Origin: Actinocatenispora comari | GTDB taxonomy: Bacteria > Actinomycetota > Actinomycetes > Mycobacteriales > Micromonosporaceae | NCBI RefSeq assembly: GCF_017312725.1 | Contig: NZ_BOPO01000147.1 | Location: forward strand, 1 to 64,000 | Length of the DNA stretch: 64,000 nt | Reading direction: 5' to 3' | Shown here: one piece after another, positions 1 through 9,827 of the stretch | Layout of the letters: the number at the start of each line of letters is the position of its first letter | Numbering within the stretch: the first letter of the stretch is position 1 | Translations under genes and position numbers: made by a program | Notes under the pieces: model-generated | What the model was told of the DNA's origin: nothing | Seen by the model: the letters and a program-made list of their open reading frames with translations, nothing else | Databases searched by the model: none

Positions 1-58
1 CCCATCGTCGGCGGGCCCGTCGGTGCCGCCTCGCGGTCGGCGCCGAGGCGGATGACGG

Positions 59-1783: not shown

Positions 1784-3406
1784 ATGAGCACGGACATCAC
1801 CACGACCGACGAGTGGCGTGCCCTCGCGGCGCATGCCGACCAGGCGCGGGCGCTGCGGCTGCGGGCCGAGTTCGAGCGGGATCCGAAGCGCGCGGAGCGG
1901 CTCTCCGCGCAGGCCGGCGACCTGTTCGTGGACTACAGCAAGAACCTGGTCACGGACGAGACGATCGGGCTGCTGACGGCGCTGGCGCGGCGGGTCGGGC
2001 TGACCGACCGGATCGCGGCGATGTTCGCCGGCGAGCACGTCAACACCTCCGAGGACCGGGCGGTGCTGCACACCGCGCTGCGGCTGCCGCGCTCGGCGGA
2101 GCTGGTGGTGGACGGTCAGGACGTGGTCGCCGACGTGCACGCGGTACTGGACCGGATGGGCGATTTCGCCGAGCGGGTCCGGTCCGGTGACTGGCGCGGG
2201 CACACCGGTGACCCGATCCGTACCGTGGTGAACATCGGCATCGGCGGCTCCGACCTGGGGCCGGTGATGGCGTACGAGGCGCTCGCGCCCTGGCGCGACG
2301 CGGGTATCGCGTGCCGGTTCATCTCCAACATCGACCCGACCGACCTGAGCCTGACGCTGGCCGACCTGGACCCGGCGTCGACGCTGTTCGTGGTCGCGTC
2401 GAAGACGTTCTCCACGCTGGAGACGCTGACCAACGCGCGGCAGGCGCGGGCCTGGCTGCTGTCCGGGCTGGGCGACGACCCGGCGGCGGTGGCGAAGCAC
2501 TTCGTCGCGGTGAGCACGAACGCGAAGCTGGTCGGCGAGTTCGGTATCGACACCGACAACATGTTCGGCTTCTGGGACTGGGTCGGCGGGCGCTACTCGT
2601 TCGACTCGGCGGTGGGGCTGTCGCTGATGCTCGCGATCGGGCGGGACGCGTTCGGCGAGATGCTGGCCGGCTTCCACGTGGTCGACGAGCACTTCCGGAC
2701 CACCCCGATCGAGCGGAACGTGCCGGCGCTGCTCGGGCTGCTCAACGTCTGGTACAACAACTTCCTCGGCGCGCAGACGCATGCGGTGCTGCCGTACTCG
2801 CAGCTGCTGCACCGGTTCCCGGCGTACCTGCAGCAGCTGACGATGGAGTCCAACGGCAAGTCGGTGACCCGCGACGGCGTGTCGGTGACGTACCAGACCG
2901 GCGAGGTGTTCTGGGGTGAGCCGGGCACGAACGGGCAGCACGCGTTCTACCAGCTGATCCACCAGGGCACGAAGATCATCCCGGCCGACTTCATCGGGTT
3001 CGCGGAGCCGAACTACGAGGTCGACGAGATGCACGACGCGTTCATGGCGAACTTCTTCGCACAGACCGCGGCGCTCGCCTTCGGCCGTACCGCGGCGGAG
3101 GTCGAGACCACCGGGGTCGCCGCGGACGTGGTGCCGCACAAGGTGATGCCGGGAAACCACCCGACGACCTCGATCCTGGCGCCGAAGCTGACGCCGGCGA
3201 CGCTGGGCCAGCTGGTCGCGCTGTACGAGCACGTCACGTTCACCGAGGGCACCGTCTGGGGCATCGACTCGTTCGACCAGTGGGGTGTGGAGCTGGGCAA
3301 GGAGATGGCCAAGCAGCTGGCGCCGCTGCTGGCCGGTGAGCCCGGCGACGCCGACCCGTCGACGGCGGCGTTGATCGCCCGCTACCGCACCCAGCGCGGC
3401 CGGTAG
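1784..3406 (+). CDS. pgi: Glucose-6-phosphate isomerase
   Basis: Interconverts glucose-6-phosphate and fructose-6-phosphate in the cytosol. The 540-residue length is right for a full Pgi. Both family signatures are visible: [13 protein letters not shown] (signature 1, sugar-phosphate binding) and the C-terminal [14 protein letters not shown] (signature 2, with the active-site lysine). [11 protein letters not shown] and the [14 protein letters not shown] stretch with its conserved histidine are also family hallmarks. ATG 1784 gives the normal N-terminus; the frame opens 48 nt earlier at a GTG that lacks homologous sequence. It appears monocistronic, with a large hairpin on the 5' side and a strong stem-loop about 30 nt after the stop. 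Confidence 0.97.
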
Positions 3407-3430
3407 GCCGGGCCTCGACCCGCGGGTGCG

Positions 3431-3459
3431 AAAAGGCGCCCGGCTGGCTGCCGGGCGCC
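3431..3459 (-). terminator. Intrinsic terminator (minus strand); also a hairpin after pgi
   Basis: A perfect 10-bp stem (3435-3444 with 3450-3459, 5-nt loop) is followed on the minus strand by TTTT (3434-3431), the classical intrinsic-terminator form. On the plus strand the same stem lies 28 nt after the pgi stop without a T-tract, so it may also stop pgi transcription. The arms are nearly identical to those of the hairpin at 3675-3701. Confidence 0.75.
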
Positions 3460-3674
3460 CAACCACCTCCGACCGATGGCCCTCGACCGAGGTGTGGGTA
3501 GACGTGCGGAGCGCGACTCCGCCCGTCTGGCTCGACGTTACGTCGCGGTTGCCGGTGTTGCCGGGGATTTCCGCAACATCCACTGGACGTTTGCCCAGGC
3601 TGGTGGGCCGGCTCGGTCGAGCGGTGGAGCCGGCAGGCGGGTACGTCGAGGTATGGAGCTGCGACGGATGCGTC

Positions 3675-3701
3675 GGGCGCCCGGCTGGTGGCCGGGCGCC
3701 C
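3675..3701 (-). promoter_or_regulatory. Hairpin just downstream of the Trp-rich leader peptide
   Basis: A perfect 11-bp GC stem (3675-3685 with 3691-3701) and 5-nt loop lies 25 nt after the stop of the minus-strand peptide ORF and has no T-tract. Position and geometry suit an attenuation element that a ribosome stalled on the Trp codons could affect. Its arms match those of the terminator at 3431-3459, so cross-pairing between the two hairpins is possible. Confidence 0.5.
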
Positions 3702-3725
3702 GGTGCGCTGCGGTGCCGGAGCGGC

Positions 3726-3785
3726 CTACCACCACCAGCAGTGGCTGATGATGACGGCCAGACCATCGGTGAAGATCGCCAGCAT
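3726..3785 (-). CDS. Small ORF: 19-residue peptide ending Cys-Trp-Trp-Trp (leader-peptide-like)
   Basis: Reads MLAIFTDGLAVIISHCWWW then TAG. An AAGGAG Shine-Dalgarno (3792-3797) sits 6 nt from the ATG, among the best ribosome-binding sites in the window. Three consecutive TGG codons directly before the stop are the hallmark of a tryptophan-sensing leader peptide; known actinobacterial trp leaders carry an internal WWW. A hairpin follows 25 nt later and a terminator about 290 nt later on the same strand. No amino-acid biosynthesis gene lies downstream; the next real gene there, pgi, is on the opposite strand. A 65-codon frame of biased composition opens at the GTG inside the TGG run (3735 down to 3538), but it does not look like a conserved protein. 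A weak promoter can be proposed (TAGGTT near 3843-3838). Confidence 0.6.
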   Translation of the reverse strand: MLAIFTDGLAVIISHCWWW

Positions 3786-3955
3786 GATCGTCTCCTTGAG
3801 AGAGGTGTACCGCGGTAGGTCACCGTCGGTATTCATGAACCTACTCTAAGTGAAGATCGATGTCGGTCATTTCGTGATTTGCCGCCATGCTGTTTCCCGA
3901 CAGCGGGAACGGCCGCCGGGCGGTACGGCACTCGGACCGCACCGCCCGATGGCGC

Positions 3956-6733: not shown

Positions 6734-7390
6734 GTGGAGATCCTCGTCGTGGAGGACGATGCCCGCCTCGCCGACGCGTTGTGCGTGGCGCTGCACCGCC
6801 GCGGCTACGGAGTGACCCACGTCGGTACCGGCGAACAGGCGCTCGCCGCGCCGGACTGCGACCTGGTGCTGCTCGACCTCGGGCTGCCCGACATGGACGG
6901 CCTGGCGGTGTGCAAGCAGTTGCAGGAGCGCTCCGACGTGGCCGTCATCGTGCTCACCGCCCGCGGCGAGGAACGCGACCGGGTGCTCGGGCTGCGCACC
7001 GGCGCGGACGACTACCTGGTGAAGCCGTTCAGCATGGCGGAGCTGACCGCGCGGATCGAGGCGGTGTTGCGGCGGCACCGGCCCCGGCCCGCCGGCCCGG
7101 TCACCGTCGGTACGCTGCGGATCGACACCGAGGCACGGCAGGTGCACATCGGCGCCGAGCCGGTTGCCTTGCGCCCCAAGGAGTACGAGCTGCTCGTGGT
7201 GCTCGCGCGGCAGGCCGGAGCGGTGGTGCCGCGGCAGCGGCTGATCATGGAGGTCTGGCGCTCCACCTGGCCCGGCGCGGCCCGTACGTTGGAGGTGCAC
7301 GTGGGGTCGCTGCGGGGCAAGATCGCCGCGGCCGGCCGGATCGAGGCGGTCCACGGCGTCGGCTACCGCTACGACGTGCGGGACGCATAG
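6734..7390 (+). CDS. Response regulator, OmpR/PhoB class
   Basis: A 218-residue two-domain regulator. The receiver (about 1-115) has the acidic pair E7/D8/D9, phospho-acceptor D48 in LVLLDLGLPDMDG, T75 in VIVLTARGE and K97 in DDYLVKPFS. The C-terminal winged helix includes LRPKEYELLVVLARQAG and the recognition region ending GVGYRYDV. GTG 6734 has GGAGGGTGAC directly upstream. It is the first gene of an operon with the sensor kinase and a TAXI lipoprotein. Its TAG stop overlaps the GTG of the first unit of a 29-bp tandem repeat. It presumably responds to the partner kinase; target genes are unknown, and the divergent WhiA-like gene is one candidate. Confidence 0.95.
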   Translation: MEILVVEDDARLADALCVALHRRGYGVTHVGTGEQALAAPDCDLVLLDLGLPDMDGLAVCKQLQERSDVAVIVLTARGEERDRVLGLRTGADDYLVKPFSMAELTARIEAVLRRHRPRPAGPVTVGTLRIDTEARQVHIGAEPVALRPKEYELLVVLARQAGAVVPRQRLIMEVWRSTWPGAARTLEVHVGSLRGKIAAAGRIEAVHGVGYRYDVRDA

Positions 7391-7472
7391 TGCGTCGCTT
7401 CGACGCGGGGGAGGCATAGTGCGTCGTTTCGACGCGGGGGAGGCATAGTGCGTCGTTTCGACGCGGGGGAGG
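7386..7472 (+). repeat. Three tandem 29-bp units carrying RBS, GTG start and overlapping TAG stop
   Basis: Units at 7386-7414, 7415-7443 and 7444-7472 differ only by C/T at one position. Each holds CATAGTG, the palindrome GCGTCG-TTT-CGACGC (CTT in unit 1) and GGGGGAGG. The first two units encode the minigene MRRFDAGEA, whose TAG overlaps the next GTG (TAGTG); the third runs on 15 codons to 7495. The last GGGGGAGG is the Shine-Dalgarno of the kinase gene. Confidence 0.9.
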
Positions 7473-7476
7473 CAGA

Positions 7477-8874
7477 GTGCGCCGGCGGCTGCTGATCACC
7501 TACCTGTCGCTGCTGGGCGTGGCGGTGGTGGCGTTCCTGCTGCCGCTGTCGGTGACCATCGCGTCCCGGGAGAACCAGGGCATGTTCATCGACCGGGTGG
7601 ACGACACGACCCGGTTCGCCACCGTCGCCGGCACCTGGCTGCGCGGCGGCCGGCTGTCCACCCTGCAGAGCGAGATCGCCGAGTACGACCGGCTGTACGG
7701 GATCGGCGTGGCGGTGGTGTTGCCCGACGGCGTGGTACGCATCGCCTCCCGCGCCGGCATCGACCCGGACGAACCGCTGCTGCGCGACGAGATCCGCGCG
7801 GCGCTGTCCGGCTCCCGGGCCCAACCGGCCGGGGTGATCTGGCCGTGGCAGCACCGGCCGATGGTGGTGGCCGAACCGATCGGCAACTCCGGCGCGATCG
7901 ACGGCGCGGTGGTCACGGTGTCGCCGACCGACGGGCTGCGTACCTCGATCGGCCAGCAGTGGGCGGTGCTGGCGGCGATCGGGTTGATGCTGCTCGCCGT
8001 CGGCGCGGCGCTGGCGATCCCGATCGGGCGCTGGTTCGCCCGCCCGCTCAACGAACTGGACGAGGTGACCCACGCGATCAGCCGCGGCGAGCTGACCGAG
8101 CGGGTGCACGACGACGTGGGACCGCCGGAGCTGCGCCGGCTGGCCAGTTCGTTCAACACGATGGCGGCGCGGCTGTCCGCGCTGATCGACCGGCAACGCG
8201 GCTTCATCTCGTACGCCAGCCACCAGCTGCGCACGCCGCTCGCGTCGGTACGGCTGCGGGTGGAGAACCTCGCCGACGCGGCACCGCCGGCCGACGCCGC
8301 CGAGTACCGGCTGGTGGTCGACGAGGTGGACCGGCTGTCCGCGATCTTCGAGGCGGTGCTGACGTTCGCCCGCGCGGACACCGAATCGGCCGAGCTGACC
8401 GACATCGACGCCGGCGCGATCGCCGACGACCGGGTGGTGGCGTGGCAGGCGATGGCGGACGCGGCCGGGGTCCGGCTGACCCGGGCGGGCGTCGACACCG
8501 CCGCCGCCCGGGCCGCCGCGCAGACCCTCGACCAGGTGCTGGACGTGTTGGTACACAACGCGATCAAGAACTGTGGCCCCGGCGCGACGGTGCAGGTGGT
8601 GGTCGACCGGGATGCCGACGGGGTGCGCGTCGCGGTCTGCGACGACGGGCCTGGCATGACCGACGACCAGATGGCACAGGCGATGCGGCCGTTCTGGCGG
8701 CAACCGGACCGCGGCCAGGCGGGCGCCGGCCTCGGCCTCGCCATCGCGAACGCGTTGGTCACCGCGTCCGGCGGCATGCTGCACCTGCGCCGCTCCGCCG
8801 CCGGTGGCCTGGACGCCGGGGTGCGGCTGGCCGCGGCACCGGCCCCGGCCCGCGTCACGGAGCCGGTCGAATGA
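7477..8874 (+). CDS. Membrane sensor histidine kinase
   Basis: A 465-residue kinase. It has TM1 (about 5-28), an extracellular sensor region of about 135 residues, TM2 (about 166-188), a HAMP linker, a HisKA domain with phospho-acceptor H249 in YASHQLRTPL, and a HATPase domain with N-box VLVHNAIKNC, G1 CDDGPGM and G2 GAGLGLAIANAL. GTG 7477 is set by the GGGGGAGG Shine-Dalgarno at the end of the repeat array. It partners the upstream response regulator and overlaps the downstream TAXI lipoprotein start by 4 nt (ATGA), so the three proteins are probably made in fixed proportion. The extracellular domain may read a TAXI-bound ligand. Confidence 0.94.
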   Translation: MRRRLLITYLSLLGVAVVAFLLPLSVTIASRENQGMFIDRVDDTTRFATVAGTWLRGGRLSTLQSEIAEYDRLYGIGVAVVLPDGVVRIASRAGIDPDEPLLRDEIRAALSGSRAQPAGVIWPWQHRPMVVAEPIGNSGAIDGAVVTVSPTDGLRTSIGQQWAVLAAIGLMLLAVGAALAIPIGRWFARPLNELDEVTHAISRGELTERVHDDVGPPELRRLASSFNTMAARLSALIDRQRGFISYASHQLRTPLASVRLRVENLADAAPPADAAEYRLVVDEVDRLSAIFEAVLTFARADTESAELTDIDAGAIADDRVVAWQAMADAAGVRLTRAGVDTAAARAAAQTLDQVLDVLVHNAIKNCGPGATVQVVVDRDADGVRVAVCDDGPGMTDDQMAQAMRPFWRQPDRGQAGAGLGLAIANALVTASGGMLHLRRSAAGGLDAGVRLAAAPAPARVTEPVE

Positions 8875-9827
8875 GGCGCCGCAGCATCCTCACCGCGCTC
8901 ACCGGCGCCGCCCTGACCGGCGTCACGCCACTGCTCGCCGGCTGCACCGAGGATCCCGGCCCGCGACCGCGGCTGGCCCTGGCGACCGGCGAGAACGGCG
9001 GCGTCTACCAGCCGCTCGGCCGGGCGCTCGGGACGACCCTCGACTCCCGCTGGCGGGTCGAGGCGGCTCCGACGGCCGGCTCGGTGGAGAACCTGGAACG
9101 GCTGCGCTCCGGTCGCGCGCAGGTCGCGTTCACCAGCGTCGACGTCGCCGCGCAGGACCTGGAGGGGCTCGGCTCGTTCGGCTCCAAGTACCAGCTGCGG
9201 GCGCTCGCCGAGCTCTACGCCGACCACGTGCACCTGGTCACCGCGCTGGAACGCGGCGCGTTCGGGGTGGACGGGCTCGCCGGCCGGCCGGTGTCCACCG
9301 GCGCCGCCGGGTCCGGTACCGAGGTGGCGGCGACCCGGCTGCTCGCCGCCGGTGGGATCACCCTGCGCGGCTTCGAACAGCACAAGCTGGGGCTGCGCGA
9401 CTCGATCGCGGCGCTGCGCGCCGGCATCATCGACGCGTTCTTCTTCTCCAGCGGCCTGCCCTGCACCGCGATCGCCGAGCTGGTCGCCTCCGGCGACCTG
9501 GAGGTCGGCCTGACCGACCTGAGCTGGTACGTGCCGACCCTGCAGAGCCAGTACGGCGAGGTCTACAGCACCGGCTGGATCCCGAACTCGATCTACAACC
9601 TCACCTCGGTCAGCACCGTGGCGGTCGCGAACGTCCTCGCGGTACCGGCGGCGATGAGCGAGTCCGCGGCATACCAGCTGACCCGGCTGCTGTTCGTCGC
9701 CAAGCCCCGGCTGTCCGCCGCACACCCGGAGGGCCGGCAGCTCGATCCGCGCTCGGCCCTCGGCACCTACCCCGTCCCGCTGCATCCCGGCGCCGAACGC
9801 TTCTACCGGGAGCAGAAGGCCCCGTAG
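8871..9827 (+). CDS. TAXI-family solute-binding lipoprotein
   Basis: A 318-residue substrate-binding protein of the TRAP-associated extracytoplasmic immunogenic (TAXI) family. The signal peptide ends in lipobox LLAGC, so it should be anchored to the outer face of the membrane. Family features are LATGENGGVYQPLGRALG at the start of the mature protein, VAFTSVDVAAQ, STGAAGSGTEVAATRLL, and the aromatic-rich ligand region around GWIPNSIYNLTSVSTVAVANVL. TAXI proteins normally feed a fused TRAP permease. None is present here; instead the gene is translationally coupled to a two-component system, suggesting that it presents ligand to the kinase. It converges on the lysozyme-like gene with a 24-bp gap. 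Confidence 0.85.
   Translation: MRRRSILTALTGAALTGVTPLLAGCTEDPGPRPRLALATGENGGVYQPLGRALGTTLDSRWRVEAAPTAGSVENLERLRSGRAQVAFTSVDVAAQDLEGLGSFGSKYQLRALAELYADHVHLVTALERGAFGVDGLAGRPVSTGAAGSGTEVAATRLLAAGGITLRGFEQHKLGLRDSIAALRAGIIDAFFFSSGLPCTAIAELVASGDLEVGLTDLSWYVPTLQSQYGEVYSTGWIPNSIYNLTSVSTVAVANVLAVPAAMSESAAYQLTRLLFVAKPRLSAAHPEGRQLDPRSALGTYPVPLHPGAERFYREQKAP

Follow-up and report, generated by a model that had tools for sequence, protein, structure and literature searches.

A putative genus-restricted micro-gene for a hydrophobic, Trp-ended peptide beside pgi in Actinocatenispora

The window analyzed here, a stretch of 64,000 nt from Actinocatenispora comari, carries on its minus strand a short element convergent with pgi. 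On balance, we favor the reading that this element is a stand-alone, genus-restricted micro-gene for a hydrophobic micropeptide, with its own promoter, 5′ hairpin, Shine–Dalgarno (SD) sequence, and 3′ hairpin, and is not a leader. A dedicated promoter would give rise to a short mRNA with a 5′ stem–loop, a strong SD, and a single ORF of 19 codons (18 in A. rupis). The product would most likely be a hydrophobic, Trp-ended peptide anchored in or at the cell membrane by its hydrophobic portion, its Trp cluster lying at the interface, and a first hairpin (hairpin 1) would terminate or protect the mRNA. For three of the species compared, out of four, the transcript could also run through a variable spacer into a further conserved, structured segment (module B) and a second hairpin (hairpin 2) with its T run, so that a longer, RNA-tailed form would exist. 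The analysis itself shows the conserved unit, the diverged peptide homologue, the hairpins, the lack of a gene downstream and, computationally, the lack of a switch under ribosome control. Transcription and translation of the micro-ORF, the membrane location, and any cellular effect are what we infer.

If this reading is correct, the locus is a peptide gene far below the usual limits of annotation, which resembles a failed attenuator and yet is kept by selection. It would also mean that a comparison of few close genomes can tell a peptide gene apart from a regulatory leader, and it would provide a defined candidate for studying the role of an 18–19 residue, Trp-ended peptide in actinobacteria. 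Should the RNA tail be functional as well, the transcript would be a compact dual-function RNA.

Organization of the element

As read from the sequence, the ORF (3785–3726, minus strand; ATG at 3785, stop codon TAG at 3728–3726) consists of 19 codons and encodes MLAIFTDGLAVIISHCWWW. The SD motif GGAG, inside AAGGAG (3795–3792, minus strand; likewise read from the sequence), lies 6 nt 5′ of the ATG, and its context, CTCTC..rGGAG, is common to all four Actinocatenispora genomes. The first-pass annotation had described a 19-codon ORF with a strong SD, two nearly identical hairpins, and TTTT; both its coordinates and this description are correct on rereading, with spacings of 23 and 214 nt. Hydrophobic residues occupy 14 of the 19 positions of the window peptide and 13 of the 18 of the A. 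rupis peptide (mean hydropathy 1.31 and 1.21, respectively). Searches against Pfam, NCBIfam, and PHROGs returned 0 families at E values up to 10; the query was a 36-aa in-frame stretch containing the peptide, as the 19-aa peptide alone is shorter than the profile-search minimum. With no family found in these collections, the membrane location of the peptide is read from its composition alone. No Rfam match reached the gathering score across the 64-kb window, and the one match in 3400–3950 at E values up to 1, sR1, is on the opposite strand and scores 13.7 bits versus a threshold of 45.

A 36-aa form with an N-terminal extension, starting from the in-frame ATG at 3836, was considered and rejected. 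This start is present in the window species and in G002 and missing in G003; the A. rupis frame upstream of the micro-ORF is open far back, but is not similar to the extension. The ATG at 3836 (3836–3786, minus strand) also coincides with the predicted transcription start, from which a 36-aa leaderless form would be made in the window species and G002.

The candidate promoter (3870–3843, minus strand) comprises a −35 hexamer, ATGACC (3870–3865), a 16-nt spacer, and a −10 hexamer, TAGAGT (3848–3843). This arrangement, nTGACn-16-TAnnnT, follows the promoter consensus of the Streptomyces kind, nTGACn / TAnnnT, as given in the excerpt of PMC8079986. Only three matches of this kind occur over the 128 kb of strand in the window, the pair being one of them, and its hexamers are the same in G002 and G003; in A. 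rupis, no nTGACn-TAnnnT pair was found. A generic sigma-70 scan gave 0 matches, and so did a terminator scan, hairpin 1 included. In the 5′ UTR, a hairpin of the form TACCG-A-CGGT...ACCG-CGGTA (3831–3808, minus strand; fold z −1.96 for 3838–3786) may protect the 5′ end of the mRNA. By eye, this hairpin with its unpaired A also folds in A. rupis (L068, 1310–1331), where one inner pair is C-G for T-A.

Hairpin 1 (3702–3674, minus strand) starts 23 nt past the ORF stop and has 12 bp, a 5-nt loop, and no T run. It has an energy of −30.3 kcal/mol (31-nt stretch) and a fold z of −5.43 versus shuffles (37-nt stretch), and probably signals where the peptide transcript ends. Hairpin 2 (3459–3435, minus strand), 214 nt beyond hairpin 1, has 10 bp and is followed by TTTT (3434–3431); together they probably form an intrinsic terminator. 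A 26-nt direct repeat, identical at 24 of the 26 positions (2 mismatches), is common to hairpins 1 and 2. This likeness was weighed as that of a terminator common across the genome, an explanation that was rejected: the core pattern GGGCGCCCGG-N4..10-CCGGGCGCC is restricted to these two sites in the 7.96-Mb assembly, the third of the three matches counted being hairpin 1 read from the other strand. The view that the hairpins are alternating partners was also rejected, as the whole-transcript fold forms each of them independently. The likeness reads better as a duplication.

Conservation in Actinocatenispora

The comparison set consists of the window species and three other Actinocatenispora genomes (G002, G003, and A. 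rupis). A DNA search recovers the locus in three of the four; A. rupis gives no BLAST match. Across the three-species alignment, none of the 60 columns of the ORF (3785–3726) is variable, versus 69 of the 198 ungapped columns of the comparators, which were assumed to be unconstrained: the upstream intergenic region, the spacer, and the stretch past the terminator. Variation is also sparse in the other parts of the unit: 1 of 35 columns in the promoter region (3870–3836), 5 of 50 in the 5′ UTR, 1 of 23 between the stop codon and hairpin 1, 1 of 29 in hairpin 1 itself, 6 of 86 in module B (5 of 85 ungapped), and 0 of 29 in hairpin 2 with TTTT (3459–3431). One-sided Fisher tests against the comparators gave p values from 1e-3 to 4e-10 (4e-10 for the ORF), values to be read with the sites non-independent and the region borders set after the alignment was seen.

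The 4-fold sites of pgi differ from those of the window by 11.4% (G002) and 19.2% (G003); therefore, zero silent changes in 19 codons are not significant alone. What stands out from these alignments is how sharply conservation begins and ends at the borders of the unit, rather than the identity of the 19 codons alone. Identity of the ORF among three species cannot separate a constraint on the peptide from one on the RNA, and the case for selection at the peptide level depends on one diverged homologue, that of A. rupis.

This homologue, MIAIFSHGFAFFLRSWWL, has 18 codons and is located beside pgi at the same position, starting from an ATG preceded by GGGAG. A. rupis is the most diverged of the four species, its pgi being 83% identical. 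The residues kept in its peptide are M, AIF, G, A, and WW (MxAIFxxGxA...WW), and the other changes are largely among hydrophobic or small residues. The similarity between the window and A. rupis peptides was equalled in 6 of 20000 composition-kept shuffles. The Trp run itself varies, from WWW in three species to WWL in A. rupis, in which the third Trp is a Leu, while the peptide retains its hydrophobic pattern. Thus, the invariant ORF set against variable flanks and spacer, together with the diverged A. rupis peptide in the corresponding position, shows that the unit is under selection. It is this conservation, not the pattern, that rules out chance: SD-ATG-WWW-TRR matches in 63 of 354 family genomes, of which just 3 contain this micro-ORF.

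Hairpin 1 is found in all four genomes. The A. rupis hairpin shares a 10-bp core with it and also has no T run; 10 of the 12 pairs are identical, and 2 are changed on both sides. These two-sided changes are matched by no slid version, and by 42 of 500 shuffles, the comparison resting on a single diverged sequence. The distance from stop codon to hairpin is 23 and 24 nt in the two lineages. The window species, G003, and G002 have both hairpins, hairpin 1 of G002 carrying a single change in its loop; A. rupis has one hairpin. The possibility, raised at the outset, that neither peptide nor hairpins would be conserved in relatives is thus answered by the peptide in four of four genus genomes and by both hairpins in three of four.

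In A. rupis, about 35 nt separate the hairpin from the pgi stop, and the spacer and module B are absent. Its upstream neighbor is an ADP-ribosylglycohydrolase, unlike the 5′-nucleotidase (PF02872, PF00149) that precedes the element in the window; given this difference, the element travels with pgi. A separate hairpin (GTCCACATCGGAC...GTCCGATGTGGAC) lies right at the pgi stop in A. rupis (L068, 1471–1497), and no comparable hairpin was seen at the pgi stop of the window species. There, the two convergent transcripts may both make use of hairpin 2.

Spacer, module B, and distribution

Between hairpin 1 and module B lies a variable spacer (3673–3546, minus strand), in which no conserved element was recognised; 62 of its 128 columns are variable, including 36 with gaps. 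Module B (3545–3460, minus strand) is confined to the window species, G002, and G003. Its three stems are predicted from the consensus of three sequences, with a fold z of −1.88 and 9 of 200 shuffles equally good. A covariance model of module B scored strongly in 3 of 354 family genomes, all genus members, and picked up 4 more only weakly, at E values of 0.002–0.006. In the simplest history, the common ancestor of the three species duplicated the hairpin and gained the spacer, module B, and hairpin 2 behind it, or A. rupis lost these parts.

Several other identities for module B were examined and rejected. As a mobile or wider element, it had no phage match and one plasmid match (28% coverage, E 0.3). 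Coding on the plus strand was dismissed by eye, with no frame open across the locus and spacer alike in all species. A 65-nt match of 79% identity in G067, one of 121 genomes searched, has a different fold and scores 14.0 bits, below the 18.1 bits of a match elsewhere in the window. In G067 (L098, 1501–1760), two adjacent stretches carry GCGCCAGACrGGC and GGTCGCGCCGCGCAC words, which are near the words of module B; as module B homologues, these stretches are unsupported by fold or model score.

A GTG frame (3735–3538, minus strand) opens in the TGG run and stays open for 65, 64, and 53 codons across the window species, G002, and G003. Both of its ends are alike among the three species, and its middle is unrelated, shifted by indels of 1 and 2 nt (or 35 nt). 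In G002 and G003, it runs open to nearly the same point, as the spacer indels sum to multiples of three. The A. rupis counterpart stops after 7 codons, by eye. This frame had been suggested as a frameshift or coupled product; with an unrelated middle in three species and a short counterpart in A. rupis, it was not counted as conserved, although a slender chance of a second product from it may persist.

Beyond the genus, a DNA search of 200 family genomes revealed no convincing homologue among the matches listed. Some match at E values up to 0.1 was returned in 197 of the 200; among those listed, the non-genus matches are short, start at query position 100 or beyond (from the ORF end to the hairpin), and were dismissed as GC-rich likeness. 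Likewise, 394 genomes of the class contained no convincing homologue outside the genus, with two matches of 28–31 nt (G563 and G401). The peptide pattern gave 21 rows in 354 family genomes, 6 of which represent this locus in the four genomes; the 15 others were rejected, L074 lying inside a 695-aa ORF, L086 being antisense to a 395-aa transposase-like ORF, and the rest being judged by their letters. A pattern search over 84,980 species yielded 12 matches, of which 11 are from other phyla and only that in A. rupis is relevant; viral contigs gave 0 matches. These patterns require an SD and an MxAIF-like start, and those for family genomes also consecutive Trp codons, so that more diverged relatives would be missed. 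A pgi search matched 5 of 10 genomes, and downstream of pgi in G004 and G006, which belong to other genera, no such element was seen by eye. One copy of the element was recognised per genome. As far as these searches reach, a genus-restricted micro-gene would be the best reading of the distribution. Among the papers listed, judged by titles and abstract openings, no account of such an element in Actinocatenispora was found.

Trp codons and competing explanations

In the partial texts of PMC1262725 and PMC8079986, actinobacterial trp attenuators have a trp gene and, besides double or triple UGG codons, both an antiterminator and a GC-rich terminator followed by poly-U; in Streptomyces, trpL1 (MFAHSTRNWWWTAHPAAH) lies upstream of trpE. 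Like trpL1, the element has UGG codons in a row within a short ORF and a GC-rich hairpin behind it. At least two consecutive Trp codons are indeed present throughout (WWW in three species and WW in A. rupis). The remaining attenuator features differ. No same-strand gene follows the element in any of the four genomes; pgi (PF00342, plus strand, ending at 3406 in the window) is directly next and convergent. In folds computed with the ribosome at successive positions, an equilibrium rather than a kinetic model, no competing antiterminator that displaces a terminator upon Trp stalling was found in either the window lineage or A. rupis. Hairpin 1 dominated throughout, with a mean pair probability of 0.957–0.999 in both lineages for the free RNA and for a ribosome on the first Trp codon, the second Trp codon, or the stop codon. 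Moreover, hairpin 1 has no T run, and TTTT follows hairpin 2 only. In the window, the pairing partners of the Trp codons are codons upstream of them, and in A. rupis they lie in downstream sequence; because these partners differ between the lineages, no shared 1:2 / 2:3 scheme was seen. Unlike trpL1, which has a leaderless start, the ORF has an SD, its Trp codons stand directly before the stop codon, and its hydrophobic part is conserved.

These results bear on several earlier proposals. The absence of a target gene, as first reported, was confirmed in all four genomes. The form of a Trp-codon attenuator, by comparison, was not borne out by the folds, and the loss of a structural gene finds no support at the locus, with pgi convergent directly after the element in each genome and a gap of just ~35 nt in A. 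rupis. The suggestion of a role in trans was retained as a possibility, with the trpL products of Sinorhizobium meliloti as its best precedent in the excerpted PMC7298713.

Such an orphan Trp attenuator, whose short RNA and/or leader peptide would act in trans in amounts set by the Trp supply, is nonetheless rather unlikely. Two or three C-terminal Trp codons are kept in all four species, and Trp could still be sensed through the two conserved terminal codons. Also in its favor, seven matches to trpE-type domains were found in the four genomes, and the six small ORFs (WW or three W) within 1.5 kb upstream of them, at three loci, were taken for stray reading frames within the preceding genes; the Streptomyces-type pattern [NHSR]WWWxxH matched once (G003), inside a 529-aa ORF. 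In S. meliloti, the trpL products rnTrpL and peTrpL act in trans, the RNA arising from the attenuator before trpE(G) (PMC7298713, in part); compared by description, they too represent a tiny consecutive-Trp peptide on a short RNA ending at a hairpin. Yet, the present element has no operon and no adjacent trp gene, its Trp-codon pairing differs by lineage, its third Trp is replaced in A. rupis, and hairpin 1 is undisplaced at every ribosome position tested. The last point also weighs against a ribosome-arrest peptide, whose stalling would sense a small molecule or the state of the membrane. In its favor, the C terminus, which abuts the stop codon, is conserved and rich in Trp, and arrest peptides such as TnaC exist, but, to our knowledge, known arrest leaders regulate a neighbor on the same transcript, which is lacking here, and this explanation is very improbable. 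Unlikely too, though clearly less so than arrest, is an RNA as the main product in the three-species clade, a regulatory sRNA formed by module B and hairpin 2 with the ORF as its 5′ part, perhaps with a dual function. The near-invariance of both modules beyond a freely varying spacer and the three consensus stems argue for it; against it, searches did not turn up module B in A. rupis, a species that retains the peptide part, the fold of module B is only modestly better than those of shuffles, no double compensatory change was seen by eye, and no nTGACn-15..19-TAnnnT promoter is present within the spacer.

The hydrophobicity and length of the peptide also fit a type I toxin–antitoxin toxin, a very short peptide of IbsC size silenced by an antisense RNA; like such toxins, it is shorter than 60 aa. 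IbsC has 19 aa, and 15 aa with 10 hydrophobic residues suffice, as stated in the part of PMC8309996 consulted; like it, the peptide here has ~19 mostly hydrophobic residues and is the single short ORF of a structured mRNA; folding also predicts a weak hairpin that would mask the SD (−3.3 and −1.4 kcal/mol). Unlike for IbsC, no antisense RNA was found at the locus: no antisense nTGACn-TAnnnT promoter lies over it in any of the four genomes, and pairing of the 3′ part with the region of the ribosome-binding site, searched within the locus only, was no better than in shuffles for three species. The single copy recognised per genome and the strong SD also speak against a toxin, which we consider improbable. 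A combined picture, in which a leader-peptide-like gene without an operon gives one transcript that encodes a membrane peptide with a Trp tail and, in three of the species, also carries a separately conserved structured RNA, is unlikely as a whole; peptide and RNA would both act in trans (a dual-function RNA), and the second module would have joined the gene through duplication of the hairpin in front of it. It is unlikely, if less so than any of the above alternatives. The stand-alone micro-gene for a membrane peptide, which we favor, has counterparts in AcrZ and SpoVM, which are membrane-associated. Both appear among the small bacterial proteins in the excerpt of PMC7298713, and the likeness lies in a very short product of a stand-alone gene; the peptide here is shorter and, as far as searched, confined to one genus.

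At the trpE-type loci (L111–L117), no credible consecutive-Trp leader was seen within 1.5 kb upstream, unlike at Streptomyces trpE. Further along the window, a two-component system is encoded on the plus strand (6734–8874), with a regulator (PF00072/PF00486) and a kinase (PF02518/PF00672/PF00512), followed at ~8850–9827 (plus strand) by what we take, from its look, to be a TAXI-type substrate-binding lipoprotein.
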